Shown: one piece after another, positions 4,451 to 55,669 of the stretch | How positions within the stretch are numbered: position 1 is the stretch's first letter | How the letters are laid out: each line of letters opens with the position of its first letter | Source: Asterias amurensis | Taxonomy: Eukaryota > Echinodermata > Asteroidea > Forcipulatida > Asteriidae | NCBI RefSeq assembly: GCF_032118995.1 | Contig: NC_092665.1 | Span: 6,071,501 to 6,135,500, forward strand | Direction of reading: 5' to 3' | Length of the DNA stretch: 64,000 bases | Notes under the pieces: generated by a model | The model's database searches: none | What the model was told of the DNA's origin: nothing | The model's input: only the letters and a program-made list of their open reading frames with translations | Position numbers and translations under genes: made by a program

Positions 4451-4559
4451 TCGTCCCCCCTAGCGTATCACACTACAGTGATTTTTCCCTGGTGGCCCTC
4501 AAATTTTTGCATTAAACAAAGAGAAGACGGGTACCATTACGAAGTTCTTGTCGTCTTCT

Positions 4560-4748
4560 GTGTGTGTGCGCGGCAAAAAGGGGAAAAAGTGATCAGCAGG
4601 AACTGGTTCAGACCGGCTGGATCTTCCGCCGTCGTTTGTGCGCGTGCGCTCTCTCCACCATCACGTCACATTGTGCGCTCACTTAACTTTTGGAAGAGTT
4701 TGTACTTGACCTTTGCTGATCAGTTTCCACGACAAAAAAATTACAGGT
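4560..4748 (+). other. Possible non-coding first exon of a host gene (A block)
   Basis: A locally GC-rich stretch with many CpG dinucleotides ends in ATTACAG|GTAAGA, a good donor at 4748/4749. Phase analysis gives no start codon linking it in frame to the next candidate exon (6125-6185), so it would be 5' untranslated sequence. The start is a guess. It is placed here because the next three exon candidates on this strand continue rightward to a poly(A) signal at 8343. Confidence 0.35.
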
Positions 4749-5431
4749 AAGATTAAGAACACTATTCTGTGTTATTAATATGAATATTATTACTATTATT
4801 GTAAGTCACATGGTTAACATAAGCCTAACGCTCGTTAGGCTTGAACATAAAATATGACAATTGGAAAATTTATCATGTTTAGCGACAGACGATCGTCAGA
4901 TCGATGATAGACGTGATAGATGACAGATTGTGTTTGTGTGTGTGCATGCATAACGTCAACACAACACACACAGACAGGCTGCATGTGGATTTGGGATGAT
5001 TTGTTGTTTGCCATGGTCCATGGACATGAATTATAAAGTTGTTTTTCTGGTTCTGGAAATGTCTAGCTTTTGCTTTACTAGCTTTCCAATTTCAGTTAAT
5101 TAAAATTAGCCTACCCTCTGGCTCTAGTTTACTAGTAGTATTTTACAACATGTCTAGTCGATCATCTGACTGACAATACATAGATGTCTTACTCTTAGTA
5201 ACATTACATTACAACTAAAAATCAGCAAATTAATTCAGTAAAATGAAAATGAATGTGATTATTTCAGTCACAATTTTTTATACTAAAAATTCCTACACTA
5301 GGCCTAGGCCTACCTATTAACCTTACTACTGTTTTTTTACTTGGTTGGCAAGCTGATTTATACTAAACTCACTGTGGTGAACATATGAGCAGATGAGGAT
5401 GCATTAAAACACATTTTTTAGCCTGGCATGC

Positions 5432-5582
5432 CTGGGGCCGATTTCACAAAGCAATAAAATTCATCGCATGACAAATTTTCAGTATCACCATAGAGATTTG
5501 TATTGTGACATCACACTTTACTTAGCAACTACGATTGATTTGAAGTTACGATCAATTTGAGATCTTTGTGAAATCGGCCTCT
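5432..5582. mobile_element. MITE with GGCCGATTTCACAAAG ends
   Basis: Left GGCCGATTTCACAAAG and right CTTTGTGAAATCGGCC are perfect inverted ends around 150 bp of AT-rich DNA. A similar terminal theme (GATTTCACAA and TTGTGAAATC) occurs at 21475-21607, and a looser one (AATTTCATAG) at 59085-59325, so the three may be distant relatives. It lies in a candidate intron of the host gene fragment. Confidence 0.8.
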
Positions 5583-6124
5583 GGTCTGGTAATGGTATAG
5601 TAAGTGACGATCCATTTTGTTTGTATCTTTTTGTCGATTGAGTGCTACTGCTAGTAGTAGTACTGTGTAGTACTGTTCTGTAGTAGTAGGTTTGTTCACA
5701 ACCGCTAGAGGGCGCTGCGCGCGCTGGACCAATTTCCGTTAATGAAAACTGTGCCGCGATCTCAAGTAGTGCGCCAATTATTTAATAACTAATGGATCAG
5801 TTGAAAGTTTTCTTTAAATACTTTTCAAGTGGGAACATCTTCCAGTTCTGACTTAACCAGATATATTCGGCATTTGTTTATAGACAAAAGGTACAAGTAC
5901 AACATCAATATTAAACCCTTACTTTTCAATATCATGAAATAACCAGTGAAAAATTCATCGCGTTTTGTATGCTCTTGTTATGAGAAATGCTGACAACAGC
6001 TTAAAGGGACACAAAGTATAGCAGTGTCATGGTAATTACCAATGTTGTAAATGGCCTCTGGTATTTATATATTTTGAATAATATACATGTTTGTGATTTG
6101 TTTTCTTTTTCTTTCTGTATAAAG

Positions 6125-6185
6125 GAAACTGCAAGAAGCTCTGACTTTGACTGTGACACGGATAGCCCTGTACTGGCCTAAGCAG
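6125..6185 (+). pseudogene. Candidate exon of the unrecognised host gene, with an in-frame TAA
   Basis: The acceptor TTCTGTATAAAG is followed by 61 bases and CAG|GTAAAA. Read in the only frame whose phase joins the next exon (one base carried over), it gives ETARSSDFDCDTDSPVLA, then TAA, then the junction codon. The splice sites and the phase agreement argue for a real exon. The TAA argues that the gene is dead, that translation starts downstream, or that another exon intervenes. Confidence 0.35.
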
Positions 6186-6763
6186 GTAAAAAATACCTTC
6201 GAAAATAACTGACATTTTAGTTCCCCAATTTAATTTAACCATTAATAATAACTTGAACATTGAATGATAATTTTCTCACCTGAAGTACATTTGAGTTGAA
6301 AATCAATCATACTTAAATTTTTGTGCATATGCTTACAAGGATAAGTATAGTATTACTGATGGAACTATGGTGTTTCCCATACTTAATAAAATCAATCTTA
6401 AATCAGATGGTTTATTGTTTCCAATAAGACATTTTGTCTACAGCTTTGTGCTCATATTTGAAATTGTAAAGTGAACTTGCCAACATTTTTCTTAAAAACT
6501 TAAACTCCCACACCCTGGATCATCTGAAAAATACTGCAATATTTTGTGGTCAACAAAAAATGTCACCGATTCAACATTTTAAGCCCACAGATTTCCTATG
6601 CTCATTAGACTTACCCCGTGTGTCTTAAAAATATTAACTGTGGGTAGATGTAAATAAAGATTTGGTAAAAAAAAATACCTCATTTTATAACCTAAACTGG
6701 TCCTTTTGTTATTTGCATTTGCAAATAAGTTGATGTTTGTTTAAATGCTTGTTTCTGCTGCAG

Positions 6764-6929
6764 GTGACAACCCCTTCCTGAGCGCAAAATGTGCAGTCTG
6801 CATCGAAAGGAATCCACTACTCCATTGCAGTGATCTTCTCAAGGGTCTTCAGATGTGGTTCGTGGTGTTCTATGTTTTCAATCTACAATACCCACCTAAT
6901 ATTGCAGCTACTCCTGAGTTCATGCAAAG
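6764..6929 (+). CDS. Internal coding exon of an unrecognised host gene
   Basis: The acceptor TTTCTGCTGCAG is excellent and the donor is CAAAG|GTAATT. The 166-base exon (two bases completing a codon, 54 codons, two left over) encodes GDNPFL...CAVC...NPLLHCSDLLKGLQMW...YVFNLQYPP...PEFMQ. It joins the next exon in frame through AG|A (Arg). The pattern YVFNLQYP...FMQR followed by a basic linker and a short C-terminal VVQLCTKLKDFE helix reminds me of the C-terminal module of uncharacterised metazoan proteins, but I cannot name the family. Confidence 0.55.
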
Positions 6930-7010
6930 GTAATTATTTTGAAGCACTTGTATTATTCTTCATTTTGGCCAAGTGGAAACAACTGCAGTTCAACTGCACT
7001 TAAAGAGCGG

Positions 7011-7348
7011 CTTTAATGTGACGTACTCATTTTCCAATAGATATAGTCCTCATGTGAGTGGTGAAAAAATTACAAGTCTCTTACCTCATGTTAAAGTGGT
7101 GTAATTGCCATTCTATTCGATACCCTCCAGTGCAAAATTTGTCAACGTTCAAAACATCCTACATGACATCATTCAAGAGAAAAATGGGTTCATTTTTGTA
7201 CCTGTTGTTTTGGTTCATTCGTGACTTCAATTTGAAACATGACGTCATTGGATTATCAACAACTAATGAGTCTTTTCCATCAAAGGAGGCATTTTTTGGA
7301 AAATAAGTATATCACAAAATTGAATTTGACATTAAAGACCCTCTTTAA
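7011..7348. mobile_element. Degenerate palindromic MITE in an intron
   Basis: The ends TTAAAGAGCGGCTTTAATGT and ATTAAAGACCCTCTTTAA are imperfect inverted repeats. The internal text (CCAATAGATATAGTCCTCATGTGA, TATTCGATA) matches the element at 9326-9592, so both belong to one family. Confidence 0.6.
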
Positions 7349-8059
7349 CTGTGTGATTAAGTCTACAGTGCACAATCCAATAAATTCAGTAAAACTGTTG
7401 GAATAAATCAACCACAATTATTTTGTTCATAAATGCCAACAAAGATACAACCGCTTTTGTTCCAGTTAGTTTACCTGCCAAACTTGTGTGACTTAAGACA
7501 TGCAAGTGTAAACCGAAATGAATACTTGTTTTACACGGTACTGCAGCAAACAGTGCAATAGTGTAATGGAGCATAAAAGTTGGATTTTTGCAAAAATTAG
7601 TTGTTGTTTTTTTTCTGAGTGTGCTTACCCCCCATGAACATTTTGTTTGCATTTTTTTTTTTCTGTTCTGTGGATTCAGTGAACGTTTTTGAGTCTAATG
7701 GTACCATGTTAGAAGAGTTTGTGAGCAGCCAAATTAGTTTTACACGCAATTTCACACCGTACTGCAGCTGACTGTACGATGGGGGGGGGGGGGGGGATAG
7801 ACGCTTTTGACTGGCATGGTGCAGCGCAGGGTTAAGAGCAATAGTCAAAAAAGAAAACAAACATTTTTTAACAAACATTTTCCCTCAAGAGTATTTACTA
7901 CTGTTAACTTCCTTTAAGACTACAATCTGTTTAGAACAATGCCCATCAACGAGTATGACAAATAAGCATAATCATACAAATCAACTTTAAAGTGGATACT
8001 GGCATACAGAATTAGATTGATGTGTATAATGTACAGTTTTGTATCTTTTTTATGTGCAG
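7349..8059. other. Intronic repeat-like DNA with a poly-G run
   Basis: No gene is seen. Two similar stretches (7530-7640 and 7739-7790, sharing TTTTACACG and GTACTGCAGC) suggest a decayed duplicated repeat. A run of 16 G at about 7782-7797 is a likely assembly weak point. Confidence 0.4.
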
Positions 8060-8186
8060 ACTGCTGTTCAAGATTAGACCGGAAAGAGGCAGCAAGAGGT
8101 CCTCCAACACCAAAGGAGGGCCCAATAACAAAGTTGTACAACTTTGTACCAAGCTGAAAGACTTTGAAGAAATGTGGGTGGTGTAG
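8060..8186 (+). CDS. Terminal coding exon of the unrecognised host gene
   Basis: The acceptor TTTTTATGTGCAG precedes A|CTG, completing the Arg codon left open at 6929. It is followed by 41 codons (LLFKIRPERGSKRSS, then a lysine/asparagine linker, then VVQLCTKLKDFEEMWVV) and TAG at 8184-8186. An AATAAA poly(A) signal lies at 8343-8348, 157 bases downstream. Phase agreement across an intron of 1.1 kb, plus a poly(A) signal, makes a real (or recently real) gene likely. It is present only in unit A. Confidence 0.55.
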
Positions 8187-8342
8187 AAGTAAAACAGTTC
8201 AGATAGCACTAAAGTTGAATGTTTTTTTTTTAAACAGCACTACATGGTGTATGTAACAAAATTCCTGAGTGTTTTAGCTAGTTTTCTTGTTAAAGTGAAC
8301 GCTTTAACTGTTTTTAACTGTTTCACTCTTGAATTAACAAGC

Positions 8343-8348
8343 AATAAA
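8343..8348 (+). terminator. Poly(A) signal of the host gene fragment
   Basis: A canonical AATAAA lies 157 bases after the stop codon at 8184-8186. It is followed by an A-rich tract at about 8385-8440 that is a simple-sequence run in the genome rather than a retrocopy tail, since the gene has introns. Confidence 0.45.
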
Positions 8349-8556
8349 GTAGGATAGGTTTGTCTCAGTTCATGACCCCCCCCCCAAAAAAAAAAAAAAA
8401 AAAAATAATAATAATAATAAATAAATAAAATAAAAATAAGCTTTGAAATTTCATAAAATTTACTTGGTGTGACAAACATGTAAAAAAAAAACATTAACTG
8501 GGGGAATTTTTTTTTTTACAGATGTTCGCTGTTACCCTGTTGGGCTTAATATCTGT

Positions 8557-8650
8557 GTTTTTCTCCATGCACTGATGTGTTCAGCACTGCATACTCAGTA
8601 CTGGGTATACAGTGCTTATAATCTACATCAGTGTATGGATAAAAACACAC
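8557..8650. repeat. Imperfect hairpin (palindrome)
   Basis: GTGTTTTTCTCCATGCACTGATGTG on one arm pairs with the arm ending in CATCAGTGTATGGATAAAAACAC, around inner arms GCACTGCATACTCAGTA and TACTGGGTATACAGTGC. It is probably a small foldback MITE. The flanks 8187-8556 and 8651-9325 show no gene. Confidence 0.55.
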
Positions 8651-9325
8651 AATTATAATTCTTTATCACCGATGCAAAATTAACATGAACGTTTTCTCTT
8701 GGAACCAGTTCAAGTATGTACTGTATTTAATGTTTTTATAAGTATTATTGCTGCAATGCTTATAATAGACAGATTGAAATTGTATAATCATTAAAGACTG
8801 AAAAAATCTTCCCTTTTAAGTAATTTTAAACAATGTGAAAAACACAATTTTATTCAAAAACATCACCTTCAGTACACATTTGCACACTGGCAGAAATTTA
8901 GACAAAAGGCCTATACTTATGAAGTTGGAAATACTGAGCCAGTGTTTCCATTGTCCGATCATTTGAAACTGTATGTAAGTTGCCTAAAGCCGACCTTTGG
9001 GGGTTCAAATTTTTGGCAAACTTTGATTGATTTTCGATAAAGGGGCACTTCAGACCAAAACATTTCGCAGGATGCTTACAACCATGATCATCTTTGTAAC
9101 AGTAGTCTTTAGGTTGAAAATGTTACACCATTTGTTATCAAGGTCATCACCAGTGTATGAACCTACCCCTAATTAATAGTTTCTCTTGAAACAATTTCCA
9201 TTATGAATTGAACACAAACGTAGTACGAATCGTGTTTTTGTTATTGATGCAATATTTATGGACAATAGAGACTGGTTGAAGTCGGTAATGTGTAATAGTT
9301 AAAACATGCAGAGTTGTTCACTAAT

Positions 9326-9592
9326 TTAAAGAGGAAGGGAAATGAGCAATTCATTTTTGTGATGTACTCCTTCTTTTCAATAGATAGAGTCCTTATGTGA
9401 TCAGTGGGGAAAAATATCTCTAACCTCACTTTAAAATGATGTAAATGGCCCTTGTATTCGATAACTTTCCGGGGCAATGGTTATCGAATACAATGGCAAT
9501 TTACACCATTTTACAAGAGTAGAGACTTGTAACTTTCCCCCAATCACACGGGGACTCTACCAAAATTGAATTGGTCATTTCCCTTCCTTTAA
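9326..9592. mobile_element. Palindromic MITE (TTTAAAGAGGAAGGGAAATGA ends)
   Basis: The inverted ends AAAGAGGAAGGGAAATGA and TCATTTCCCTTCCTTTA flank near-mirror arms that meet at about 9475 around GTTATCGAATAC and its complement. It is the same family as 7011-7348 and better preserved. Confidence 0.75.
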
Positions 9593-9812
9593 GTCATTTT
9601 AAACAATAAATTATAATGTAAAAAAAAAGTATTTAAAAGTATTATTCCTTGTGTACATTATGACGACAGTTGCATTATTTTGAGTGAATTTCAATTAAAG
9701 TTGAAAAAACTGTTAATGTTTTGTGAAACTGAGATAAAACGTGTGTGATATGTCTTATTTTCTTGTTTGAATTATATTAATGAGAGGGTGGTCAAGGTAG
9801 CAAAACAAAGCA

Positions 9813-10118
9813 TTGTGTATACACAGAAGATTGGTCATCCTATGTGACATAACAGAGATTCAACGTAAACGCGCAGAAAGCAGTGTATGTTCTGTCACAG
9901 AGAGTTGTTCGTGTACAAAACACTATGTTGATGAACAAAATCCTTCAAATAAATCTACTGTTGTGCCACAGAGCTTCTACATTTTAGCCAACATCAATTA
10001 CAGTGGATTGTGCTGTGAAGGTACAGTACACATCACAGGAGATTCTGATGTTGATGCACAGTGGAAAATCACAGTTGAATCTTCTGTAGACAAAAGTAGC
10101 CTCCGTAATGCCAATTGA
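9813..10118 (+). other. Unrecognised 101-codon plus-strand ORF opposite the Gag 3' end
   Basis: The frame is open from a possible acceptor (TATACACAG at about 9827) to TGA at 10116-10118. It encodes a Ser/Thr/Cys-rich peptide (SSVCSVTESCSCTKHYVDE, later NYSGLCCEGTVHITGD). It overlaps the end of the minus-strand Gag frame. Composition is protein-like, but I recognise no domain and there is no sister copy to test conservation. It could be a fragment of another gene or part of the repeat. Confidence 0.25.
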
Positions 10119-11597
10119 CAAAACAAACTACTGTAAATTAACAACATTTTTTTTAACAGTACTTGATCAATGTTTTGTCCAATACAGCATGCTCCTGGCA
10201 ATGATACTTTGTTAACAACCATACAAGCAACAGTTTCAGTTTTCTCTTGATGGTCCTTAGTTTTACAAGAACAACCTTGACAAGTAGACAAGTGGGGCTG
10301 GGTTTCAAAGCAACCAGAGTTTGAGCTTTGCGGTGAGGCATCTGTTTCATTACCTGGATATGTTACCATAGAAGCAAGTTGATTTTTGTTACTATAGCAA
10401 TTTTTGGCAATATGGCCAGGTCTGTGACAGTTGAAACATGTGCGGGGGGCACTGTTGTTAACTGACGTGTATCTACAATCTTTTGCCATATGACCATGTT
10501 TATGACAGATATAGCAAGTAACCAAAGGTTTGTATGAAGAAACATTTGATGATGACCCCTGTGGAACTACGTGTGATTGTACAGTTCTAGGTTCTATCCT
10601 CTTAGTCATTGTATCACTTCTCTGATTTGGATTACGAGAAGTAACAGGGTTCCCAAACATACCACCACGAGCTTCAAGATATTGTTCGGCAATAGTAGCC
10701 ATAGTGGCAATGGTTTTAGGCTGTCGTTCTTTAAGAAAAAGAGCTAACTCACGACTACATCCAGCTGTAAACTGTTCTCGGAGCAGGAGATCACACACAC
10801 CCTCAAAGGTTTTCTCTGCCTCTGCTAGGTCGATCCATCGAAGTAGGTAGTTCGCCAGTCGTGTGGCAAACTGAAGTCCGCTCTCTCCCCCTTCTGGTTT
10901 GGCTGTTCGAAGTTTCAAGCGGAACCCATCTGCTGTAAGCTGGAACCGTTTCAACAATGATGACTTCAGCTTCTGGTAATTGCTTGCTTCATCTGTGGGT
11001 AGTCTAGAATAAACTTCAAGAGCTTTTCCTGTTAACAATGCACTCAAATTAATAGCCCAATCTTCTTGACACCAGTCTTGACTAGTTGCATATCTTTCAT
11101 ATCGTTTCAAATATGCGTCTAAATCATCTTTGCTGTCATTAAAGGTTGGCAATTTAGGAGTTCTTGCTTTTTGTCTACTAACACCATTTTCTACAGACGA
11201 TTTGCTTTGACCTTGTTCTTTTACTTGAGCCCTAACTTTCTCAAATTGTATCTTTGTGTCCAAAATCTGTTGGTCTTGCCTACGAATTTCCAATATGTGG
11301 GCCCTCTCTTCTCTAGCTAGTTTATCTTTCCATTTCTTATTCTCATTCTCTCTCTCTTTTGCCTCATTCTCACGCTTTTGCACAAAGTCCATCAACTCTT
11401 TACCACTCAACCCGAAACTCTTGCCAGCCTCAATTAGTGTGCAGATGTCCATTTCAATTTTTGTCGCTAGCAAAAAGCATAATAAAGCAGCCAATAACAA
11501 ACAGATCCCTGGTAATCTATAAATCGGTCTATTCACTTTCCATTCATTTCCTGAGTTTACATACTTGGCATGTTCGTTTTCATTTCCCGGACAAGCC
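9998..11597 (-). mobile_element. Fossil Ty3/gypsy (Gmr1-like) Gag region, joined to an ALP exon
   Basis: A long Gag frame is recognisable. It starts MDICTLIEAGKSFGLSGKEL, continues through a Glu/Lys-rich coiled coil and a capsid with the SCAN-like motifs NLSALLTGKALEVYSRL and LLKRFQLTADGFR, and has two CCHC zinc knuckles (CYICHKHGHMAKDC, CFNCHRPGHIAKNC). Just inside the junction is GGGGCTTGTCCGGGAA, which resembles a tRNA-Pro primer-binding site. The element is broken: no LTRs and no protease or pol were found. By family knowledge, vertebrate SCAN domains derive from this type of Gag. Age: it is absent from units B and C, so it is likely younger than, or unrelated to, their shared structure. 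The left boundary is uncertain. Confidence 0.85.
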
Positions 11598-11706
11598 CCG
11601 TGAAAAAGATGTGACATTGGTCCATTGGCGTAAATAGTGACGTCCTCTCCACCATGAGTCTCTGAATCAATTGGGACAAGCGCTGGATGGTGAAAATCGG
11701 CAGCCT
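11598..11706 (-). pseudogene. ALP: ALP last exon of unit A, truncated and continuous with Gag
   Basis: The acceptor TTTGTGCAG is at 11707. The exon encodes ...HHPALVPIDSETHGGEDVTIYANGPMSHLFHG, with the conserved THGGED (Zn-ligand His) and GPMSHLFHG motifs. In B the exon continues with HEQHYIAHVVRYASGLNC and a hydrophobic tail. In A homology stops after CACGG (about 11598) and the frame stays open into the retroelement leader and Gag, giving one 580-codon frame (9998-11740). Confidence 0.85.
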
Positions 11707-12446
11707 CTGCACAAACAAATAATAAAACAATGTTTATCACAATACAAGTAAAATAATTGTTTACACAAGTTAATGATTAACTCTATGAAATGGCAAAGGG
11801 GCACTTTCCCTTGGCAAAATCGTGGTTGCAAAAACTTCCCTGTAACTTTGCCAAGTGACATGTTTAAGATTTAAAATATTTCAAAAAGTCTGCATATACT
11901 CGGATTTAATTTTACTGAGTGGTGTACCTGAGTGGTACAAACCAATACTCAAAGTAATCAATTGAAGCTTTACCTGTCTTGGTATCCGTCAGATTCCGTC
12001 TCGAACCAGTACTTTTGAAGCTGTTTAACTCCTCAATTCCTCCAGGGCCGTTTGCATATGAGAGTGTTGTAAATGGCAAACCGTCATTCATCAGACCTTG
12101 ACATTTATGCAAAACCATTTTGTTGTAATTAGAATTTAAATATGAATGGTTTGACGATGAATCACCATTCACTTATAGAAAACTGAGAAACTTGCACAAC
12201 TTGTTAACATTACTTACTGGTCAGAATTCAGTCTGCATTCGGGTAACTTAACGGAGTTTACTTTTTGTTTCAAAACATAATAAAGCTGCAGTCTATACAA
12301 ACAGTTGGATTTATCGAGAGATATCGCCCTTTGAAAAAAAGGGGAAGTAAATAAATAATAATAGTTAGAAACAGTCTCTCTTTAAATTCATTGTATACTA
12401 TTTTGCATACAAATGATATTTTGAAAGATATAGCTTTTAATTGTTC

Positions 12447-24446: not shown

Positions 24447-25041
24447 CGTATCTCAACTACGCATAAAATAACAAACCTGTGAAAATTAGAGCTCAATTGG
24501 TCGTCGAAGTTGCGAGATAATAATGAAAGAAAAAACACCCTTGTCACACGAAGTTGTGTGCTTTCAGATGATTGATTTCGAGACCCTCAAAATCTAATTC
24601 TGAGGTCTCGAAACCAAATTCGTGGAAAATTACTTCTTTCTCGAAAACTACGTCTCTTCAGAGGGAGTCGTTTCTCACAGTCTTTCAACTTTGAGATTTT
24701 CAATATATGAACGAGTCCTTTATGTCAAAGAAGTTGCCCAAGATGGGGACAGAATCTCCGGGGACAGATTTCCATGAGACACCGGCCCAAGGCGGAATCC
24801 TGCCATACGTGTTTTTTAAAACAATCAAAATTACTTCAATCTCATCCAAAGTTCATTTGATTGTTTTTGATTTTTGTGGTTTATATTGATTGTTTCTGCT
24901 CCATTGAATATTCTTGTTTCCCAAAAGCATTTGTGCGTTTCGGTGGTAGTAGACTCTGAGAAAACAAAGAATACAATTGAAACTCAGTTTAAAAATACCC
25001 TTTAAGGGCAAAGGCAGGACACATTAATAGGTAACTTTCAA
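24447..25041. other. Internally deleted TTAA MITE plus junction DNA, end of unit A
   Basis: 24447-24690 is a TTAA MITE with its right end missing. The B copy at 48441-48778 is complete there. 24720-25041 (GGGGACAGAATCTCCGGGGA and flank) recurs at 48800-49130 and at 61735-62045 inside unit C, so it is a dispersed low-copy segment and not only a unit junction. Confidence 0.6.
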
Positions 25042-25373
25042 CCACTAGTGAGTCTTTTCACTTGGTGTATCTCAACATATTCTTAAATTAACAAACCCGT
25101 GAACAATAATTTGAGCTCAATTGGTCGTCGAAATTGCGAGAGAATAATGGGAAAATCACCCCCGTCGCACAAGTTGTGTGCTTTCAGATGCCTTCAGTTT
25201 GAGACCTTTAACAACTCGAGAAAATACTTCTTTCTCAAAAACTAGGTTTCTTCAGAGAGAGCCGTATCTAACAATGTTTTATACTATTAACATCTCTCCA
25301 TTGCTCATTACCAAGTAAGTCTTTATGCTAGCAAATCTGTTGAGTATTTACCTATGGTGTCCAGTGCCTTTAA
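25042..25373. mobile_element. TTAA MITE at the A/B junction
   Basis: It carries the family text TCAATTGGTCGTCGAAATTGC, AGTTGTGTGCTTTCAGATGC, CATCTCTCCATTGCTCATTACC and ends GTGTCCAGTGCCTTTAA. It is identical in position to 1-114 and 49135-49468, so the junction element was duplicated with each unit. Confidence 0.85.
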
Positions 25374-25690
25374 TGTTGCTTTGTTGGTGGCGCACTCTAC
25401 TATAAATACATTGTCATTGCATTTCGATTTCGGAAAAAAAACACTGAGTTATTGTTAGTAAACATATACTTCAAAAGAGTGGAAGAACGAAAGAGATCCA
25501 TCTGAACAGTATATATATTGCGTACGCAGTTCTTTCTTTGATAATAAACTTGCACTTTAACTCACAATCATCAGGGAAATACATTAATTGAGCGGAAATA
25601 GAAGGAAAACGGCCAGGAACTTCAGGAAGCAATCACACAGTGCAACCCAGTAGGGCGGATATACATGTAAAAACACCATACCATTAAAAC
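25374..25690. other. Conserved distal upstream region, unit B
   Basis: Counterpart of 115-436. No gene is seen. Confidence 0.6.
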
Positions 25691-26085
25691 ATGTACAAAT
25701 TGAGCTCCATTGGTAACATACAGCCTCATCCAAACCAGTGATAGAGTAAGTCACTGCTTTCAATCAGTGACTTTAACACATACACAATGTAGTGTAGAGT
25801 TTTACACCATTGGTATCCATTCAACATACAGTATCATTCAAACCAATGGTAGAGTGAGTCACTGCCATAAAGCAGTGATTTTAACACGGTATTGATCCAC
25901 AGTTGTAACATACAGCCTCGTCCAAACCAATGGTAGAGTAAGTCACTGCTTTCAATCAGTGACTTTACCACGTACACAATGTAGTGTAGAGTTTTAAACC
26001 ATTGTTATCCATTCAACATACAGTATCATTCAAACCAAGGATAGAGTAAGTCACTGCATTCAATCAGTGACTTTAACACGTATCT
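25691..26085 (+). repeat. Tandem CCAAT/stem-loop array, unit B (4 modules)
   Basis: This has the same module structure as the unit A array but four stem-loops. The second has diverged (GAGTCACTG/CAGTGATT) and the fourth has CCAAGG in place of CCAATG. It stands immediately upstream of the promoter that in this unit still drives an intact C1q coding exon. Confidence 0.8.
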
Positions 26086-26158
26086 ATGATTGGCTGCTCA
26101 TCGATTGTCAATCAAACATCGAAGTAGACTGATGGGCACTTCAATGAAAATACAACAG

Positions 26159-26262
26159 TATTTAAACGCGCTGCACCAGCAGCAGTGTTCATAACATTTT
26201 TGCATCTTCTCGGAAGAGAGAAACTGAGAAAGTTTGGACTACAAGAACACAACATCATCAAG
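26159..26262 (+). promoter_or_regulatory. Promoter and non-coding exon 1 of the unit B C1q gene
   Basis: TATTTAAA at 26159-26166 is followed by a predicted start at about 26190 and the donor CATCAAG|GTAAGT at 26262/26263. The first downstream acceptor leading to a coding exon is TTACAG at 29997-30002, which gives an intron of 3.74 kb. The link between exon 1 and the C1q exon rests on strand, splice signals and conservation in B and C. It has not been tested. Confidence 0.5.
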
Positions 26263-26405
26263 GTAAGTGTTCTCGTTATACTGTCGGACCCGGACTTTGG
26301 CTTCTAGATGCATGCAGTGTATTTTAGGGTAGCCTCTTATTTCAAGAATGTTGCAGTTTTGGTCAAGAAGGGGCACCACTCTACCCAATAAAGCAGTAAC
26401 ATTAA

Positions 26406-26573
26406 GGTGCTTTACCTGGCAGCTGGTGCCAGGTAAAATGCAGTAAATTTCACAGTAGCAGTTTTGTAAATTGTGCCTTGAAGGGGTAGTTTGCTAAACT
26501 CCACTTTGAAATTTACTGCACTTTTAATACCTAGCACCCTGGCTGCCAGGTATACAAAGCACCGTAATTTTGA
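26406..26573. mobile_element. Short palindromic MITE, unit B
   Basis: Inverted ends GGTGCTTTACCTGGCAGC and GCTGCCAGGTATACAAAGCACC, the same insertion as 1231-1382. The following 26574-27297 is intronic with no gene recognised. Confidence 0.7.
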
Positions 26574-27297
26574 CGGATTATTTTTTATAGCGTATTCAGC
26601 TGAAGTTCTCATGTAGTGTTTGGGTCACTTGCTCTCTGCCAACATTAGTGTACTGTGGTACTGTTTGGTGGTACAGATTGTTATGCCGTTGCATTTCCCT
26701 TTGAAACCACGACATAATAGCGTTGTGTCGTTGGGGCTTTTATCACCATACTTGCAAGTGGTTTCCGTTTTGGAGCAGCAAGTTCCGCTGGTATTCTGTA
26801 CATTGTCTTGTTCAAATAGTGGGCAATAAAAGTTTACCTAGACAGTTTCAGTTGAATGTGCTTGATATTCTGCTCGTTTTAATGTGTGTGTACTCTTCAT
26901 CCAAAAGCTGTCAACAAAATTAACAACAAGTACTGATTAAATGGCATTGTGTGACTTTGTTATTTTCTTTTATGTTGTGGGTAAAACAAAACAAGATTGA
27001 ACATAATGCAACACTTTCACAATTATTATGGTGATCGGTGGTTTGTACAGCCGACGTGGGGAGGGGCAACCGAGGTGAAGCCGAGTTTGCCTGTTTGCCC
27101 CAAAAGTTTACACAAAACCTGGACCCCGTCACGGCGGAGCATGCAACATTAATTGTTTTATTTTACCATGATAATCGAGTCCTCTTGTTTGGGGACAAAT
27201 TGTTACCATCCTCCATTATTGTTACGACAATAATGACACAGTTTAAAACTATGACAGCATATTTTGTTAGCCAAAACATGGTGGCACACTGTCTTAA

Positions 27298-28878
27298 GGT
27301 GCTGTCACTTGACGTTTTAGCCAGCGTATGTCAACGTATGAAATTTTAGCGAGTACGCTGGCGTACGTCGAATAAATATGGGTAAAGGCCCCGTCACACC
27401 TTGACGTTTAAGCCAGCGTATAGCGACGTATGACAATGTTGGCGACTACGCTGGTGTACGTCAAAGTTATGGATAACTTTGTATAAGTTAAGAGCACGAT
27501 GAAACACGCTGATATACCGGTCGATGTAAGTCGTGTGGCTCATGATGGCCCTGTCACACCTTGACGTTTTAGTCAGCGTATGCCGACGTTTGTAAATTTC
27601 TCTAAAACGTTGGCATACGCTGAACTATCGATGGATTTTTCAATTTTGAGCGTATACGAAGCGTATTCATAAGGAGGTGGACGGATGCATACCGTAGAAG
27701 TAACTTACACAGAGCGTTTCCATAACGAATGCTTAGCGTGTTGACGGCGTTCACAACTTATGTTCTACGATGGTCCAACTACTGCATAGAGCGCGGGGGC
27801 AGCGTATTGCCGACGATCACATATAGTAGCCTATAAAGAGGGTGCCTCTCGACGATTGAAATAATAACTGCACTTGATCGTATTAATCCTCATGCGAACC
27901 CAAATGTTATGTACCCATTCACATTGCTCTGTCAATGGTAGCTGTAAGTTTAGAAACAAGTTTAGTAAGTTCTGTGGTCATCCGGAACACGTCAAATACG
28001 TTCGACGTAAGTTCAAAGCACATTACTCATATAGGTTATCAGAAATACGTTTTTGGTACGCTAGACATTATATCGACGTATGTCGACTTCTGATAACCTT
28101 ACAAGTAACGTGTGTGAACGTGCGTCATCGATTGTATAACGCACCTACAACTTATGCAGAACTTATGAACCACACGCTGGCACACTTAGATTTTGTTGTG
28201 CATGCACACAATTTCTCGACGACCTCGCCTTACTACGACGTACACGGCGTGTTTCAGCGTGCTCATAACTTATACAAAACTTACCCATAACTTATTCGAC
28301 GTACGCCAGCGTATTCGCCCCAATTTTGTATACGTCGGCATACGCTTGCTAAAACGTCAAGGTGTGACAGGGCCTTAACAGGTAATAGTAGTAACGTGCT
28401 TTGAACCTACCTCGAACGTATTTGACGTGCTCCGGACGACCACATAACTTAATGAACGTGATTCTAACTTACAGCTACCGTATAATGGCGTATTTACAGC
28501 GTTTATGTGAATCGGATACAAATTGGGTTCGCGGGAGGATACTACATTGTCAAGTGCAGTTATTACTTCAATCGCCGAGAGGCACCCTCTTTGTAGGCAA
28601 CTGGATGTGATCGCCGGCAATACGCTGCCGCGCGTTATGCAGTAGTTAGATTACCGTAGGACATAAGTTGTGAACGCTGGCAACACGCTAAGCATTCGCT
28701 ATGGAAACGTCCTATGTAAGTTACTACTACGGTCTGCATACGTCCAACTCGTTATGAATAGGCTTTGTATACGCTCAAAATTGAAAAGTCCATCGAAAGT
28801 TCAGCGGATGCCAACGTTTAAGAGAAATTGTCATACGTCGGCATACGCTGACTAAAACGTCAAGGTGTGACAGTGCCG
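27298..28878. mobile_element. Nested palindromic DNA transposons (GCGTATGCCGACG family), unit B
   Basis: Starts at about 27298, 27388 and 27546, and reverse ends at about 28375 and 28878, give nested insertions. It is longer than in A because A has lost about 160 bp of the right inner part (compare 28690-28850). It lies wholly within the C1q intron. Confidence 0.75.
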
Positions 28879-29286
28879 TAAGTTAAGATCACGGCTAAAT
28901 ACGCCGATATACGTCTTTGTATTATGCTTTGAACCTATGTCGAAATTATTTGACGTGTTCCGGACGACCACTTTTGATGAAATTAAGTAGTGGCAGCGTA
29001 TTGGGAAATCGGTATACACTAATCGGGTTCGAAGGAGAATACAGTGATGCCAAGTGCAGTTATTATTTCAAACGTCGAGGTACCATGCAATACGCTGCTG
29101 CGCGCTATGCAGTAGTTAGACTATTCGTAGATATCGTATCTTTTTACACGAGGAGAAATCCTCACAATGTAGACAAGTTGAGGAATCTTTCTTGGATTAT
29201 AAAATGAGCGAAGTGATACGGACAGGAGCTCAATGTATAGGGTGTTAGTTTTATCTCAAACAATCACTATGTTGCACCATCTCTTG

Positions 29287-29466
29287 TTAATATAGAGGCA
29301 TACGCGCCCCACCCTGTATCTTCCATGTAATTTTGTAATCTCTGTCAAGTCGAATCCGAGATCCAAAGCCGTCTATATGGAGATCATTACTCTGGGTTGT
29401 ATTGTCTAACAATGTCTCGGTGAAGGATACCAGAGTCTCTGTGTTTACGAATGTGATTAAACGAGC
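29287..29466 (-). other. Unrecognised open minus-strand frame conserved in B and C
   Basis: 59 codons without an ATG start: RLITFVNTETLVSFTETLL, DNTTQSNDLHIDGFGSRIRL, then DRDYKITWKIQGGARMPLY and a stop. In C the frame (53545-53756) is also open and runs longer, through QQEMVQHSDCLR. It could be a relic exon from another gene carried in the C1q intron. No family is recognised. Confidence 0.25.
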
Positions 29467-29960
29467 TCATCCATTTTGGGGCATAGGGAACGGCAATGGA
29501 CAATACCATTGTTGGGAGAAAGATTCTACCGGTCTGATTAAATTTCTTTCTCCTCACCACCCATATTTCCTCTTTTTCTCCTTTTAAAGTTGTTTATAAT
29601 TGTCTGACAGTTGTTCGGGTGTCATTGGGGAGCATTTCAACACGATATTCAGTATGTTAAAGATCAAACGAGCCAACGGCACCCTGCCGTAAGCTAAGTA
29701 GGTACTCAAGTGTGTCGCGGTAGCCACTTTGTTGTGTGGAGCGATTATTTAGCTCAACACAACAGAACACTTACGATCAATACGGCCAGGTACATAATTT
29801 AACACACACATGCTCATTCCAGCGAAACACAAATTGACTAAAACGTGGTTAATGTGGAAAGTAGCGATAAAGAACTTCCACAAACACATGGATAACGTGA
29901 ATAAATTGGAGCTGACAAAAAACTGGTGGTCACCGCTAGAGCAGCGCCCCCTGTGGCTGC

Positions 29961-30002
29961 ATGATTTTTATCGTTTGTTTTATGTATCCTATTAAATTAC
30001 AG
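29961..30002 (+). other. Acceptor region of the C1q coding exon, unit B
   Basis: The pyrimidine-moderate tract TTTGTTTTATGTATCC leads to AAATTACAG directly before ATGAAG. An in-frame upstream ATG at 29961 would add 14 residues (MIFIVCFMYPIKLQ), but it would require retention of the intron. The downstream ATG gives a cleaner signal peptide. Confidence 0.6.
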
Positions 30003-31190
30003 ATGAAGATTACCATAGCAACAGTGACCCTTCTTCTTGGTATTTTGCAAGTTCCGTTCATGGTGGCTAAAACAGCCGTTTCACCTGATCCGGAGATAAC
30101 GTGTAACTCCTGCTGCCGGGGCCCAGCCGGTATACCGGGAATTCCCGGGTCAAATGGGAACCATGGTCAAGGGCTTGTAGGGTCCCCTGGTGAGGTAGGT
30201 CAACCCGGGGCTAAAGGAGACATGGGGTCAGATGGACTAGTTGGTGAGCCAGGCGCTAAAGGGGATACTGGACTTAAGGGAGATCAAGGAGTCGGTCAAC
30301 CAGGGAAACAAGGACCTCTAGGTCTGCCTGGGATGAATGGTCTGAATGGGGAGAGAGGTAAACCTGGACCAGCTGGACAGACCGGCGAAGCAGGTGAGCC
30401 CGGGGGAAATGGAGACATCGGGTCAGATGGACTGGTTGGGGCGCCAGGCGCTAAAGGGGATCATGGACTGAAGGGAGAGCAAGGAGTCGGTCAACAGGGC
30501 AGAAAGGGACTTCGAGGTCTGTCTGGGATGAATGGTCTGAAGGGGGAGAGAGATGAACCTGGACCAGCTGGACAGACCGGCGAAGCAGGTGAGCCCGGGG
30601 GAAATGGAGACATCGGGTCAGATGGACTGGTTGGTGCGCCAGGCGCTAAAGGGGATCATGGACTGAAGGGAGAGCAAGAAGTCGGTCAACAGGGCAGAAA
30701 GGGACTTCGAGGTCTGTCTGGGACGAATGGTCTAAAGGGAGAGAGAGGTGAACCTGGACCAGCTGGACAGACTGGTGAAGCAGGTGAATGTAGTACGCGA
30801 CGGTCCGCCTTCACTGCAGTGAGGAATACCGCCTTCAACCCTCTATCCGACTATGATCCTCTGCCCTTTGAAGAGTTACTGTTTTCAGAGGAAGGGACTG
30901 ATTTCAACTTGAATAACGGCGCGTTTACGTGTAATGTGCCTGGGGTATATGTATTTATGTTCTCAGTCCGGAAACCACCAAGTGGGTCTTACCTATATGT
31001 CATGCTGAGGAAGAACGATAACACCATTGTCATAGGGTATGTAAACGATACAGATTATCATCAAGTGAGCAGCAGTGCAGTAATTCCCCTGCACTATGGA
31101 GATCAAGTTCACTTAGCTGTACGCGGTTCAGTACATAGTAACTCTGACCATCACACGTCTTTTACTGGGTTCCTGCTGTACGAAATCTAA
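30003..31190 (+). CDS. Secreted collagen-like C1q-domain protein, unit B
   Basis: The product has 395 residues. Residues 1-22 (MKITIATVTLLLGILQVPFMVA) form a signal peptide. CNSCC at 34-38 is suited to interchain disulphides. Residues 40-262 are a Gly-X-Y stalk. C1q head 264-395 has AFTAVRN, FTCNVPGVYVFMFSV, SSSAVIPLHYGDQVHL and FTGFLLYEI. Known C1q-family proteins trimerise and bind microbial or self ligands as soluble pattern receptors; an immune role here is inferred. The stalk holds two exact 65-residue repeats (131-195, 196-260), each with a one-residue register slip at GVGQQG. Two stalk glycines are replaced (Asp184, Glu226), which the C paralogue keeps. A poly(A) signal AATAAA is at 31310-31315. 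The coding part is a single exon. Confidence 0.93.
   Translation: MKITIATVTLLLGILQVPFMVAKTAVSPDPEITCNSCCRGPAGIPGIPGSNGNHGQGLVGSPGEVGQPGAKGDMGSDGLVGEPGAKGDTGLKGDQGVGQPGKQGPLGLPGMNGLNGERGKPGPAGQTGEAGEPGGNGDIGSDGLVGAPGAKGDHGLKGEQGVGQQGRKGLRGLSGMNGLKGERDEPGPAGQTGEAGEPGGNGDIGSDGLVGAPGAKGDHGLKGEQEVGQQGRKGLRGLSGTNGLKGERGEPGPAGQTGEAGECSTRRSAFTAVRNTAFNPLSDYDPLPFEELLFSEEGTDFNLNNGAFTCNVPGVYVFMFSVRKPPSGSYLYVMLRKNDNTIVIGYVNDTDYHQVSSSAVIPLHYGDQVHLAVRGSVHSNSDHHTSFTGFLLYEI
30393..30782 (+). repeat. 195-bp coding tandem repeat, two copies (unit B stalk)
   Basis: The copies 30393-30587 and 30588-30782 each encode GEPGGNGDIGSDGLVGAPGA onward to GPAGQTGEA. A diverged half-related unit precedes them (30198-30392). 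The repeat length is an exact multiple of three, so copy change keeps the frame and alters stalk length. Confidence 0.95.
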
Positions 31191-32932
31191 ATCAAACATA
31201 AAAACACACGGAAACGTTTTACTGTTTTATATAACGCTTTATGTGTTTCGAAATACAATAATCACCTAGTTAATTGTGTTTAGATGGGGCAGTTTGTTTA
31301 GATGAATATAATAAATTAGCAGTTGTCTTGATGCATGTAGGACAATTAGTTTGATTAAAAACGTTATGTTTTAGAGCGTGGTATTGCAAACGTGTTTATT
31401 GTGACGAAAACATTAAAATGTGTTGTTTTTTCTGTCACGTTAATAGTGCGATAAATATCAGTTCCTTTTTTTTTTCATCACATCTTCGGGAAAATTTTAT
31501 ATTTCTACCGAGGGTGCAATGATGAGTCCTTGAAACGACTCTACGACATTCATTTTCCAAAACTAATATGCACAATAAAACTACGCAATAAAAAACCGAC
31601 AGTTTAGTTAATAGTAGATACAAACATATAATAACTTTATATTCCTTGATGAAATTCATTATGGCCGCCGGTTATACCGGCAATTTTTATTCAACTATTT
31701 TAAGTTGGTGGAAAAGGCTGTACCCTGTTGAAGCAACAAAATACAAATAATTCACCTAACAACTGGTAACAGTTGTCTTATGTTGATATATTATGATATT
31801 AAACAAATAATGATAACTTCTGATCTAAAGGTCATAGCGTTTTAAAGTTCCTGGAAAACATTTCTTTTGTGTCTTCCTTTCCCGAACACGTCTCAATATT
31901 GTGAAATATATAACTCTTTCTCGTAGATTTGCGTGAGTTTGTTTATGTCTGTACAGCGATTGGTTTAACCGTCAAAACGGCATGAAACCAATCTTGCTGT
32001 ATCAAGAAGGTTTACCAACAAAAAAGCACCATCTTACTGTGAATTTGGATAATACAATTTTCCTCATGAGCTGGTTACACAACATTGCATTTTATCTTGA
32101 TCTCCCTTACTACATAAAAGTGTCGTTGGCAGTAAAATTAAACAAAAAACATTAGAGGTCGTCGAAACCACTTGTGTTTAATGTTTGCATTAACGTTAGA
32201 ATACATGACATAATATTTGATACATATATTGCTACAAATCGTTATTTCTCAACAAACTGTTAATCATTATTTTAGTGTGATACGTTAAGATATATATCAT
32301 AGTTCTAGAAATAGTGTATTTTTGTTTAAATAATTACATTTTAAGGAATAAACATTGACGTAATATCAGTCGATCGTTTTGTTTTTTATTCCGTTTGTAT
32401 ATATAATGAGTTTTTAAATATCATTACTGCTTAACACAGTTTACGAGCTAAACAATTTCCCTAACATTGTTTTTCTAATTTTTCAAAAACTACAGCACCT
32501 CAGCAAGTAATTGTTAATGAGAAACGGTCTACTATCTTTGAACAGTGTCAGTTTAGTGTAAATCAGTGAACAGTGTGTTTCTGTCCTTCTACAAAAAAGT
32601 ATCCGAACCCTTAAATTTGAAATCATCAGACTCAAGTTGTTATGTCAAATAGTTCAGAGCACGTTTTTTTGAAATGACACATGTATAATAATAATTGCTA
32701 TACAACAGCTTGCCCCGCACAATTAAGTGATGTTAAGCATTATTTTCTTATAGGCATGAATTTTATAAGTTGTACAAGCTCATCAGCCCTTCCCAGTGAT
32801 GCTAGATGAGACCGGTTGGGTCGAGCAAATCGGTCCAAGTGCCTCATTCAAAAGCACATGGATTGACTGACTTACGCACTTTCGAATTGGACATAAACCC
32901 GAACAATTAAACCCTTGTCACCTCTCCATGTA
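31191..32932. other. 3' flank of the C1q gene, unit B, no further gene seen
   Basis: AT-rich DNA homologous to 55670-57883 in C. TTAA at 32138-32141 is the empty target site of the MITE found in C at 56671-57056. No conserved frame was found. Confidence 0.6.
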
Positions 32933-38620: not shown

Positions 38621-38645
38621 AGTTATAATTGTGGATGAAACTTAC

Positions 38646-38846
38646 CTCCCCTGCCGAGAATTGGACTACCACGATCAGTTGCTCCTCCTATAGAGAGTAC
38701 ATGGCTATGGTCGGCAGTTACAATAAATAAAGTCTCCATTTCATTGGTCATTGACATCGCCTTGGCTACAGCCTTATCCATTGCAATGGTATCATGCAGG
38801 ACGTGGTAGGCTAACCCGTCATGATGCGCATGGTCAATTCGGCCAC
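38646..38846 (-). pseudogene. ALP: ALP exon 8 (metal-site exon), unit B
   Basis: 201 bases, intact, encoding GRIDHAHHDGLAYHVLHDT through VTADHSHVLSIGGATDRGSP. It differs from the A copy at only a few positions. It is the best marker for finding the third ALP copy outside the window. Confidence 0.92.
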
Positions 38847-38953
38847 CTTCGTGTATAAAACCAAGATAGTATGATTTATTTGTGTTTGAATTATTGAAAC
38901 TTGATGAAAAAATCTGGTAGTGTGTGTCTTGTTCGTGAAGATTGTTGTATACC

Positions 38954-39120
38954 TTTATCACGCTGTCACCACCTTGGTCATGTTCCCTGTTTCCATAATT
39001 ACAGTAATGAATGCTAATATTCTTTGCGCAAACATGGCACGAGGCTATTATTTCGTCCAGCCTCAGTTTGGTTACAATGAGTTTGAATGGAGTAAAATCG
39101 GGATGGCCACACCGTGACAA
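38954..39120. mobile_element. TTTATCACGGTGTGG MITE, unit B (single copy)
   Basis: The ends CTTTATCACGCTGTCACC and GGCCACACCGTGACAAAG are inverted. Unit A has two adjacent copies. Confidence 0.7.
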
Positions 39121-39535
39121 AGCAACATCATAGACGGAGTTTTTGTCAACCAAGATTTTAAAACTAGGAAAATACATAAATACTAAGATAACAAACGTTG
39201 GCCCTAGTTTTTAAGAATGTTCGTTTGCAACCAATTGGGATGTATTCATTTTTAATTACAAGTTTGCAGCAATGTCTACTTTGGTGACAAAATCTAGTAG
39301 GTCGGTTGATGTTTTGCTATTATTCGGCCGTCCATGCCAACCTGCGTGGTTTAGTTAGCAACAATGAAAATACATACAACCTGTGACTGAACAGTGGCAT
39401 CAAAGAGACAATGCAAATACTCCATAAAACGAGGTTTCAGATTGTCAATGATTTTCTTAGCCACATAAGTAAGAGGTAGGGCCTAACGACAAGCTCTTGC
39501 GAAACAGCAGCAATGACACAAAGGGCTCATGTAAC

Positions 39536-49790: not shown

Positions 49791-50440
49791 TACAAATTGA
49801 TCTCCATTGGTAACATACAGCCTCATCCAAACCAGTGATAGAGTAAGTCACTGCTTTCAATCAGTGACCTTACCACATACACAATGTAGTGTAGAGTTTT
49901 ACACCACTGGTATCCATTCAACATACAGTATCATTCAAACCAATGATAGAGTAAGTCACTGTCATAAATCAGTGACTTTAACACGGTATTGATCCACAAT
50001 TGTAACATACAGCCTCATCCAAACCAATGATAGAGTAAGTCACTGCTTTCAATCAGTGACTTTACCACATACACAATGTAGTGTAGAGTTTTACACCATT
50101 GGTATCCATTCAACATACAGTATCATTCAAACCAATGGTAGAGTAAGTCACTGCCATAAATCAGTGACTTTAACACGGTATTGACCCACAATTGTAACAT
50201 ACAGCCTCGTCCAAACCAATGGTAGAGTAAGTCACTGCTTTCAATAAGTGACTTTAAACACATACATGTAGTGTAGAGTTTTACACCAATGGCATCCATT
50301 CAACATACAGTCTCATTCAAACCAATGGTAGAGTAAGTCACTGCCATAAATCAGTGACTTTAACACAATTGTAACATACAGCCTCGTCCAAACCAATGGT
50401 AGAGTAAGTCACTGCATTCAATCAGTGACTTTAACACGTA
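49791..50440 (+). repeat. Tandem CCAAT/stem-loop array, unit C (7 modules)
   Basis: Seven AGTCACTG/CAGTGACT stem-loops, each preceded by AAACCAATG or AAACCAGTG, make this the longest of the three arrays. The fifth stem has a mismatch (TAAGTGACT). It lies upstream of the gene with the longer collagen stalk. Confidence 0.85.
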
Positions 50441-54286: not shown

Positions 54287-55669
54287 ATGAAGATTACCAT
54301 AGCAACAGTGACCCTTCTTCTTGGTATTTTGCAAGTTCCGTTCATGGTGGCTAAAACAGCAGTTTCACCTGATCCGGAGATGGCGTGTAACTCCTGCTGC
54401 CAGGGCCCAGCCGGTATACCGGGAATTCCCGGGTCAAATGGGAACCATGGTCAAGGGATTATAGGGTCCCCTGGTGAGGTAGGTCAACCCGGGGCTAAAG
54501 GAGACATGGGGTCAGATGGACTAGTTGGTGAGCGAGGCGCTAAAGGGGATACTGGACTTAAGGGAGATCAAGGAGTCGGACAACCAGGGAAACAAGGACC
54601 TCTAGGTCTGCCTGGGATGAATGGTCTGAATGGGGAGAGAGGTGAACCTGGACCAGCTGGACAGACCGGCGAAGCAGGTGAGCCCGGGGGAAATGGAGAC
54701 ATCGGGTCAGATGGACTGGTTGGTGCGCCAGGCGCTAAAGGGGATCATGGACTGAAGGGAGAGCAAGGAGTCGGTCAACAGGGCAGAAAGGGACTTCGAG
54801 GTCTGTCTGGGATGAATGGTTTGAAGGGGGAGAGAGGTGAACCCGGACCAGCTGGACAGACTGGTGAAGCAGGTGAGCCCGGGGGAAATGGAGACATCGG
54901 GTCAGATGGACTGGTTGGTGCGCCAGGCGCTAAAGGGGATCATGGACTGAAGGGAGAGCAAGGAGTCGGTCAACAGGGCAGAAAGGGACTTCGAGGTCTG
55001 TCTGGGATGAATGGTTTGACGGGGGAGAGAGGTGAACCCGGACCAGCTGGACAGACTGGTGAAGCAGGTGAGCCCGGGGGAAATGGAGACATCGGGTCAG
55101 ATGGACTGGTTGGTGCGCCAGGCGCTAAAGGGGATCATGGACTGAAGGGAGAGCAAGGAGTCGGTCAACAGGGCAGAAAGGGACTTCGAGGTTTGTCTGG
55201 GATGACTGGTCTGAAGGGGGAGAGAGGTGAACCTGGACCAGCTGGACAGACTGGTGAAGCGGGTGAATGTAGTACGCGACGGTCCGCCTTCACTGCAGTG
55301 AGGAATACCGCCATCAGCCCTCCATCCTACTATGATCCTCTGCCCTTTGACGAGTTATTGTTTTCAGAGGAAAGGACTGATTTCAACTTGAATAGCGGCA
55401 CGTTTACGTGTAATGTGCCTGGGGTATACGTATTGATGTTCTCAGTCTATAAATCATCAAGTGAGCCTTCCCTATGGGTCAAGCTGATGAAGAACGGTAA
55501 CATCATTGTAAAAGGTGGTGTAAGGGATTACGATTATCATCAAGTGAGCAGCAGTGCAGTGATTCCCCTGCACCGTGGAGATCAAGTTCACTTAGCTGTA
55601 CACGGTTCAGTATATAGTGACGGTAACCATCACGCGTCTTTTACTGGATTCCTGCTGTACGAAATCTAA
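54287..55669 (+). CDS. Secreted collagen-like C1q-domain protein, unit C
   Basis: The product has 460 residues. Signal peptide 1-22, CNSCC at 34-38, Gly-X-Y stalk about 40-327 with three exact 65-residue repeats (131-195, 196-260, 261-325), C1q head about 329-460. The head has AFTAVRN, FTCNVPGVYVLMFSV, SSSAVIPLHRGDQVHL and FTGFLLYEI. The stalk glycines lost in B are intact here. Between strands the head differs strongly from B (for example YKSSSEPSLWVKLMKNGNII against RKPPSGSYLYVMLRKNDNTI). The start was chosen at the ATG directly after the TTACAG acceptor (54281-54286). The AATAAA used in B lies in a segment deleted here, so the 3' end must differ. Confidence 0.93.
   Translation: MKITIATVTLLLGILQVPFMVAKTAVSPDPEMACNSCCQGPAGIPGIPGSNGNHGQGIIGSPGEVGQPGAKGDMGSDGLVGERGAKGDTGLKGDQGVGQPGKQGPLGLPGMNGLNGERGEPGPAGQTGEAGEPGGNGDIGSDGLVGAPGAKGDHGLKGEQGVGQQGRKGLRGLSGMNGLKGERGEPGPAGQTGEAGEPGGNGDIGSDGLVGAPGAKGDHGLKGEQGVGQQGRKGLRGLSGMNGLTGERGEPGPAGQTGEAGEPGGNGDIGSDGLVGAPGAKGDHGLKGEQGVGQQGRKGLRGLSGMTGLKGERGEPGPAGQTGEAGECSTRRSAFTAVRNTAISPPSYYDPLPFDELLFSEERTDFNLNSGTFTCNVPGVYVLMFSVYKSSSEPSLWVKLMKNGNIIVKGGVRDYDYHQVSSSAVIPLHRGDQVHLAVHGSVYSDGNHHASFTGFLLYEI
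54677..55261 (+). repeat. 195-bp coding tandem repeat, three copies (unit C stalk)
   Basis: The copies are 54677-54871, 54872-55066 and 55067-55261. Nearly all differences are single bases (MNGLK, MNGLT and MTGLK at the same place). The 195-bp length difference accounts exactly for the 65-residue difference between the two proteins. Confidence 0.95.

Follow-up and report, generated by a model that had tools for sequence, protein, structure and literature searches.

Results

Two collagen-stalked C1q genes with divergent heads

Two tandem genes for collagen-stalked C1q proteins carry heads that differ at 37 of 135 codons, 31 of them replacing and 6 silent, and we read the pair, with a confidence that stands about midway between belief and doubt, as members of an array that is homogenised in its 5′ part and whose heads have probably diversified on one outer face. 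The window (the whole stretch of 64,000 nucleotides of Asterias amurensis DNA analysed here) contains tandem repeat units at a spacing of ~24 kb, and two of these units carry such a gene on the plus strand (copies B and C, Table 1). A sequence-only reading made earlier had judged by eye that about 30 head codons change the residue and about five do not, which the full count bears out; it had also placed the heads at 30783–31190 and 55262–55669, and both placements proved right, each head being open to its stop and matching Pfam C1q.

Both full frames matched the N-terminal collagen repeat (PF01391) and the C-terminal C1q domain (PF00386) above cut-off (Collagen, 7.7e-30 in copy B and 3.3e-39 in copy C; C1q, 2.9e-22 in each), and the two heads searched alone matched C1q at E = 1.7e-23 and 1.3e-23. 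A secretion signal was judged by eye from the hydrophobic N-terminal start MKITIATVTLLLGILQ. The stalks contain 195-bp tandem repeats, of which the first is distinct and the remaining ones lie 2–8 differences apart, both within and between copies. A tblastn search of the window with both heads gave no C1q head other than these two (next matches, E = 1.8 or worse). No relative was confirmed among viral contigs (12 stretches with a pattern match, 0 confirmed) or among prokaryote genomes (119 pattern matches, 0 confirmed), both of which are poor collections for an animal gene.

Table 1. Features of the two C1q genes and of the divergence between them (positions in the window).
Feature	Position	Strand	Description
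C1q gene, copy B	30003..31190	+	ATG, signal peptide-like start, collagen stalk, C1q head, stop; one open frame, 395 aa
C1q gene, copy C	54287..55669	+	Layout as copy B; one open frame, 460 aa; one extra 195-bp stalk repeat
195-bp tandem repeats, collagen stalk, copy B	30197..30787	+	3.0 copies
195-bp tandem repeats, collagen stalk, copy C	54471..55266	+	4.1 copies
C1q head, copy B	30783..31190	+	Pfam C1q match, open to stop
C1q head, copy C	55262..55669	+	Pfam C1q match, open to stop
Codons 70–90 of the head, predicted strands D and E	30990..31052	+	10 replacements, none neighbouring
Zone of 12.6% divergence from copy C	30828..31426		Most of head and ~235 bp past stop; from segmentation
Zone of 27% divergence from copy C	31427..32700		Noncoding 3′ flank; from segmentation

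The unit at the left end of the window (unit A) has sequence in common with the other units up to 3851 and is without a C1q gene, and no remnant of one was found in it at 3852–11596 (blastn at E 1e-3, tblastn at E 1). The ~7.7 kb that replace the gene there resemble, by blastn, none of the corresponding stretches in the other units, and include a gag-like frame that matches SCAN and CCHC. Alkaline phosphatase exon-like stretches (Pfam PF00245) occur on the minus strand at 38626–39210 (7.1e-21) and 10001–11776 (2.4e-7); a gene for this enzyme may therefore accompany the C1q gene in the repeat unit. A 192-bp tandem repeat sits at the matching place in three units (455–905, 2.3 copies; 25713–26080, 1.9 copies; 49796–50437, 3.4 copies), with no frame of 110 aa or more listed at these places. 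Past its stop, copy B carries an AATAAA at 31310 that resembles a poly(A) signal; the alignment has a gap in copy C there, and the first AATAAA or ATTAAA past the stop of copy C is at 56088.

Divergence between the copies is a three-level mosaic

We compared copies B and C along their units. The 5′ flank (24690–30002) differs at 170 of 5188 nt (3.3%) and the signal and stalk together at 20 of 780 nt (2.6%); head codons 1–17 are identical (0 of 51 nt), and codons 18–135 differ at 46 of 354 nt (13%). The stretch past the stop (31191–31425; 26 of 206 nt, 12.6%) stays at a head-like level, and the 3′ flank (31426–32690; 331 of 1219 nt, 27%) reaches twice that of the head. Signal and stalk are thus much closer than the head, as the sequence-only reading had claimed; its companion claim, that the flanks are closer too, holds for the 5′ flank but fails for the 3′ flank.

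Segmentation of the B/C mismatches over 28000–32700 (grid of 10 aligned bases, model choice by BIC) was best with three segments (BIC 2591.9, vs. 2611.5 with two and 2594.1 with four), at divergences of 2.7% up to 30827, 12.6% up to 31426 and 27.1% beyond. Because divergence takes three levels that change near 30828 and 31427, the pattern points to recombination or conversion borders, one of which sits near codon 16 of the head. The 3′ flank can be aligned to ~32970, the copies hardly align from there to 33.8 kb, and from ~33.9 kb divergence drops back to 2–11%. The head forms a shoulder of an island of divergence whose peak is the noncoding 3′ flank (27%), not the candidate selected sites (head codons 18–135, 13%).

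Since the mosaic has a border inside the head, the head can be dated from neither flank. Its silent divergence (7.25 of 92.7 sites) is no different from that of the 3′UTR (p=0.24) and far below that of the 3′ flank (p=1e-5); head and flank are therefore not simply of one age. Replacing divergence in the head (12.4%) is likewise well below the 27% of the 3′ flank (p=1.4e-8). The heads align without gaps, whereas the adjoining 3′UTR has four gap runs.

Replacing changes prevail in the heads, with a borderline shortage of silent ones

Sixteen of the 31 replacing codons fall within codons 58–95, in keeping with the mid-head concentration described from the letters alone. By mean BLOSUM62 the replacements (–0.68) are not clearly more radical than single-base changes drawn at random (–0.51), nor are they by charge changes (13 of 31 vs. 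30%); codons hit more than once show no excess either (7 vs. 4.8 expected, P=0.21).

Counting by NG86 gave a ratio of 1.64 for the head (dN 0.136, dS 0.083) and of 0.35 for signal and stalk. Pairwise maximum likelihood (ML) with kappa also estimated by ML gave omega 2.42 for the head (p=0.034 vs. 1) and 0.51 for signal and stalk (p=0.13, so below 1 without significance), the stalk value coming from a protein alignment in which the extra repeat of copy C comes last and pairs near the head are possibly non-equivalent; the nucleotide alignments put the gap for this repeat inside the stalk. With kappa fixed at 1.0, 1.5, 2.0 and 3.0, head omega was 1.77, 1.95, 2.11 and 2.35 (p=0.17, 0.105, about 0.065–0.069 and 0.036, respectively), p falling below 0.05 only at kappa ~3 or above (0.034–0.036) in what is a comparison of two sequences only; equal codon frequencies altered head omega little. 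Among noncoding differences we counted 176 transitions and 246 transversions in the diverged 3′ part, and 80 and 90, respectively, in the 5′ flank; we read these counts as a kappa between about 1.4 and 1.8, and therefore the more cautious omega values apply. Split into parts, the head gave omega 1.79 (codons 1–57, p=0.45), 2.91 (58–95, p=0.12) and 2.50 (96–135, p=0.23), none significant alone. The sequence-only reading would have taken dN/dS well above 1 in the head and below 1 in the stalk, over all copies of the array, as support: the point estimates from these two copies fall that way (1.64–2.42 and 0.35–0.51), but significance depends on kappa in the former and is absent in the latter.

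Placing the 46 differences at random gave a probability of 0.094, 0.038 and 0.021 (kappa 1, 2 and 3) for 7 or fewer silent changes and, counted by codons, of 0.20, 0.11 and 0.075 for 6 or fewer silent codons; a codon-model simulation put the latter at 0.19, and Fisher’s test on sites gave p=0.134 for the head. Under a neutral model the shortage of silent changes in the head is borderline. Measured against a neutral yardstick of pooled silent and 3′UTR sites (33 of 299, 0.11), replacing changes show no excess over the whole head (p=0.34) or codons 18–135 (p=0.16); within codons 58–95, a stretch chosen after the fact by the earlier reader from the same data, 0.24 of replacing sites are changed vs. 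the pooled 0.11 (p=0.0019). A clustering scan of head changes gave p=0.035 when nucleotides were counted and p=0.11 when codons were. Several of these tests were picked after seeing the data, and the p values are uncorrected.

Replacements alternate along two predicted strands

The heads have the same domain by sequence as vertebrate C1q, adiponectin and the C1q domain of Caprin-2 (best, an adiponectin single-chain trimer, E=1.2e-31). AlphaFold on both heads gave a weak model (mean pLDDT 54.7; residues 1–45 and 117–134 below 50) with predicted strands at 54–63, 70–77, 80–87, 94–103, 108–116 and 126–134, of which we provisionally assign 70–77 and 80–87 as D and E. With this weak model as Foldseek query, the matches listed were C1q-family domains (best, Caprin-2, E=4.6e-8), with identities of 20–36% among the 50 listed.

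Across predicted strands D and E the replacements fall on residues 70, 72, 74, 76, 79, 81, 84, 86, 88 and 90, and the chance that ten replacements within 70–90, a stretch chosen after the fact, include no neighbours is 1.9e-4. Over residues 18–135 we counted 15 pairs of replacements two residues apart vs. 8.6–9.7 expected (P=0.003–0.005 in four shuffles within blocks of 8 to 24 codons), a statistic chosen after the pattern had been seen; avoidance of immediate neighbours over the same residues was not significant (6 pairs vs. 7.9 in a free shuffle, P=0.26). The changes had previously been described as lying in loops, a description that is half right on the weak model: variable residues are mildly enriched in loops over residues 46–135 (13 of 33 in loops vs. 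11 of 57 in strands, p=0.049, a count that takes in the low-confidence stretch 117–134), but 9 of the 16 in 58–95 lie in predicted strands and 7 outside. The alternation along the two strands is the more striking feature.

We then divided 126 head positions in half at the median of a mean burial score taken from the residues of seven solved homologue domains. In the polar half 19 of 63 positions are variable and omega is 7.2 (p=0.010; at kappa 1.5, 5.3, p=0.030), and in the hydrophobic half 11 of 63 are variable and omega is 1.3 (p=0.62; at kappa 1.5, 1.07). The polar lean of the variable positions as a whole is weak (Mann-Whitney p=0.060; p=0.047 when the count starts at residue 18). The seven homologue domains mostly agree on a hydrophobic residue at the constant positions 71, 73 and 75, and the variable residues 58, 76 and 86 are also hydrophobic in most of them. 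Passages on 4-1BBL (PMC6224509) place strands D and E of TNF-type jelly rolls in the outer sheet B′BGDE; by analogy this position may carry over to the present C1q heads, in which case the changed positions would face outward.

Discussion

We propose that the two genes are tandem paralogues of a putatively secreted, collagen-stalked C1q protein, in repeat units ~24 kb apart, and that their 5′ flank, signal and stalk would have stayed alike either because the duplication is recent or through repeated conversion and unequal exchange, for which the 195-bp repeats of the stalk, present in unequal number, are a likely substrate. Homogenisation would end early in the head, so that divergence stays higher across its remainder and for at least 1.8 kb beyond it. 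Alternate residues of the predicted strands D and E, which we take as the buried side, are constant and the others, together with neighbouring loops, have changed, the most likely cause being diversifying or divergence-preserving selection on a ligand-binding face of a lectin-like recognition protein, in opposition to homogenisation. Judged by its family, the array may be of an immune type, and the finding that head changes mostly alter amino acids fits the known fast evolution of immune recognition genes. Nevertheless, with only two copies it cannot be proved that the heads diverged under selection. The mosaic, the counts of replacing and silent codons, the alternation and both open frames are observed, and selection, the choice of buried side, ligand binding and an immune role are inferred from them and from the family. 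The sequence-only reading had named diversifying selection or conversion from an unseen paralogue; each is partly supported (omega above 1 in the head; the three-level mosaic) and they are not mutually exclusive, but significance shifts with kappa and no donor is visible in the window by tblastn.

Recombination could produce the same picture without such selection if conversion, or unequal crossing-over between divergent haplotypes, had set the same 5′ part before two 3′ parts that had long been separate; differences between the heads would then be old and moderately constrained and the scarcity of silent changes would be partly chance. This purely recombinational reading remains strong, even if we think it somewhat unlikely to be the whole account: it is favoured by the mosaic, with its two borders and its return to low divergence, by a replacing divergence in the head well below that of the 3′ flank, and by an omega that at kappa 1.5 is not significantly different from 1, but it sits poorly with the low silent divergence of the head relative to that flank, with the omega well below 1 that ordinary constraint would yield, and with the absence of a donor copy from the window by tblastn. 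Relaxed constraint, under which one or both copies would be redundant and drifting at omega ~1, strikes us as improbable. While the pooled neutral comparison does not set the whole head apart from neutrality, and unit A does without the gene, both frames are intact, gaps are confined to the adjoining 3′UTR in the comparison of head and UTR, and constant and changed residues alternate as expected of selection on the fold.

It is also conceivable, and in our view very improbable, that the assembly has placed in tandem what are really two alleles of a single locus. Allelic differences reach 3–4% in some very polymorphic marine invertebrates, and the units diverge by 3–4%; however, three units share ~2.9 kb of their 5′ part, with pairs differing by 3.2, 4.2 and 4.3%, and two alleles of a single-copy locus are therefore insufficient, and an island of 27% would be extreme for alleles. 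Returning to a 5′-homogenised array with diversified heads, we would carry the idea further only with reserve: it is a rather doubtful extension that the array is built for a constant stalk and a variable head, in which exchange in the stalk would keep the 5′ module alike, the outward face of D and E would serve as a dedicated variable ligand-binding face, and selection would keep replacements while silent sites are partly homogenised.

Tandem C1q paralogues of this kind have a counterpart in the C1qDC clusters of the Eastern oyster, for which passages of PMC6835236 describe tandem duplication with episodic positive selection at 4–11 sites per cluster, few head sites being positively selected and most of the domain being under purifying selection, and invoke unequal crossing-over. 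In those clusters, as these passages present them, no collagen-stalked type I gene was found, whereas both copies here are collagen-stalked, and selected sites were commoner towards the C-terminal end of the head, whereas replacements here are densest mid-head. The same passages describe the collagen-stalked layout as rare in bivalves, and parts of PMC4346834 report that many oyster C1q genes are clustered and that only one in the Pacific oyster has a collagen domain. The term ‘gene conversion’ has 0 occurrences in the main text of PMC6835236, and of the four papers that a literature search listed for ‘C1q domain’ and ‘gene conversion’ together, none was, by its title, on C1q gene arrays. A comparable pattern is that of the opsin duplicates under conversion treated in sections of PMC3924837 (~24 kb apart, homogenised save for a divergence peak at functionally different sites), but there the peak lies on the selected exon and here it lies in the noncoding 3′ flank beside the head. 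The mosaic likewise fits that of copepod GOT1 paralogues, as the abstract of PMC3728101 describes it, except that divergence here peaks in the 3′ flank.

Selection on tandem C1q heads is already known, and what the present pair adds to it is small, namely a collagen-stalked layout in which a border lies near the junction of stalk and head. As it presently stands, the pair is a further instance of C1q heads that have probably evolved fast, here with a border of the mosaic. If the reading of a 5′-homogenised array with diversified heads is true, the variable positions would single out strands D and E of the outer sheet as a concrete candidate for the binding face of a collagen-stalked C1q, and would show how tandem exchange can hold an effector stalk constant while recognition heads diversify.
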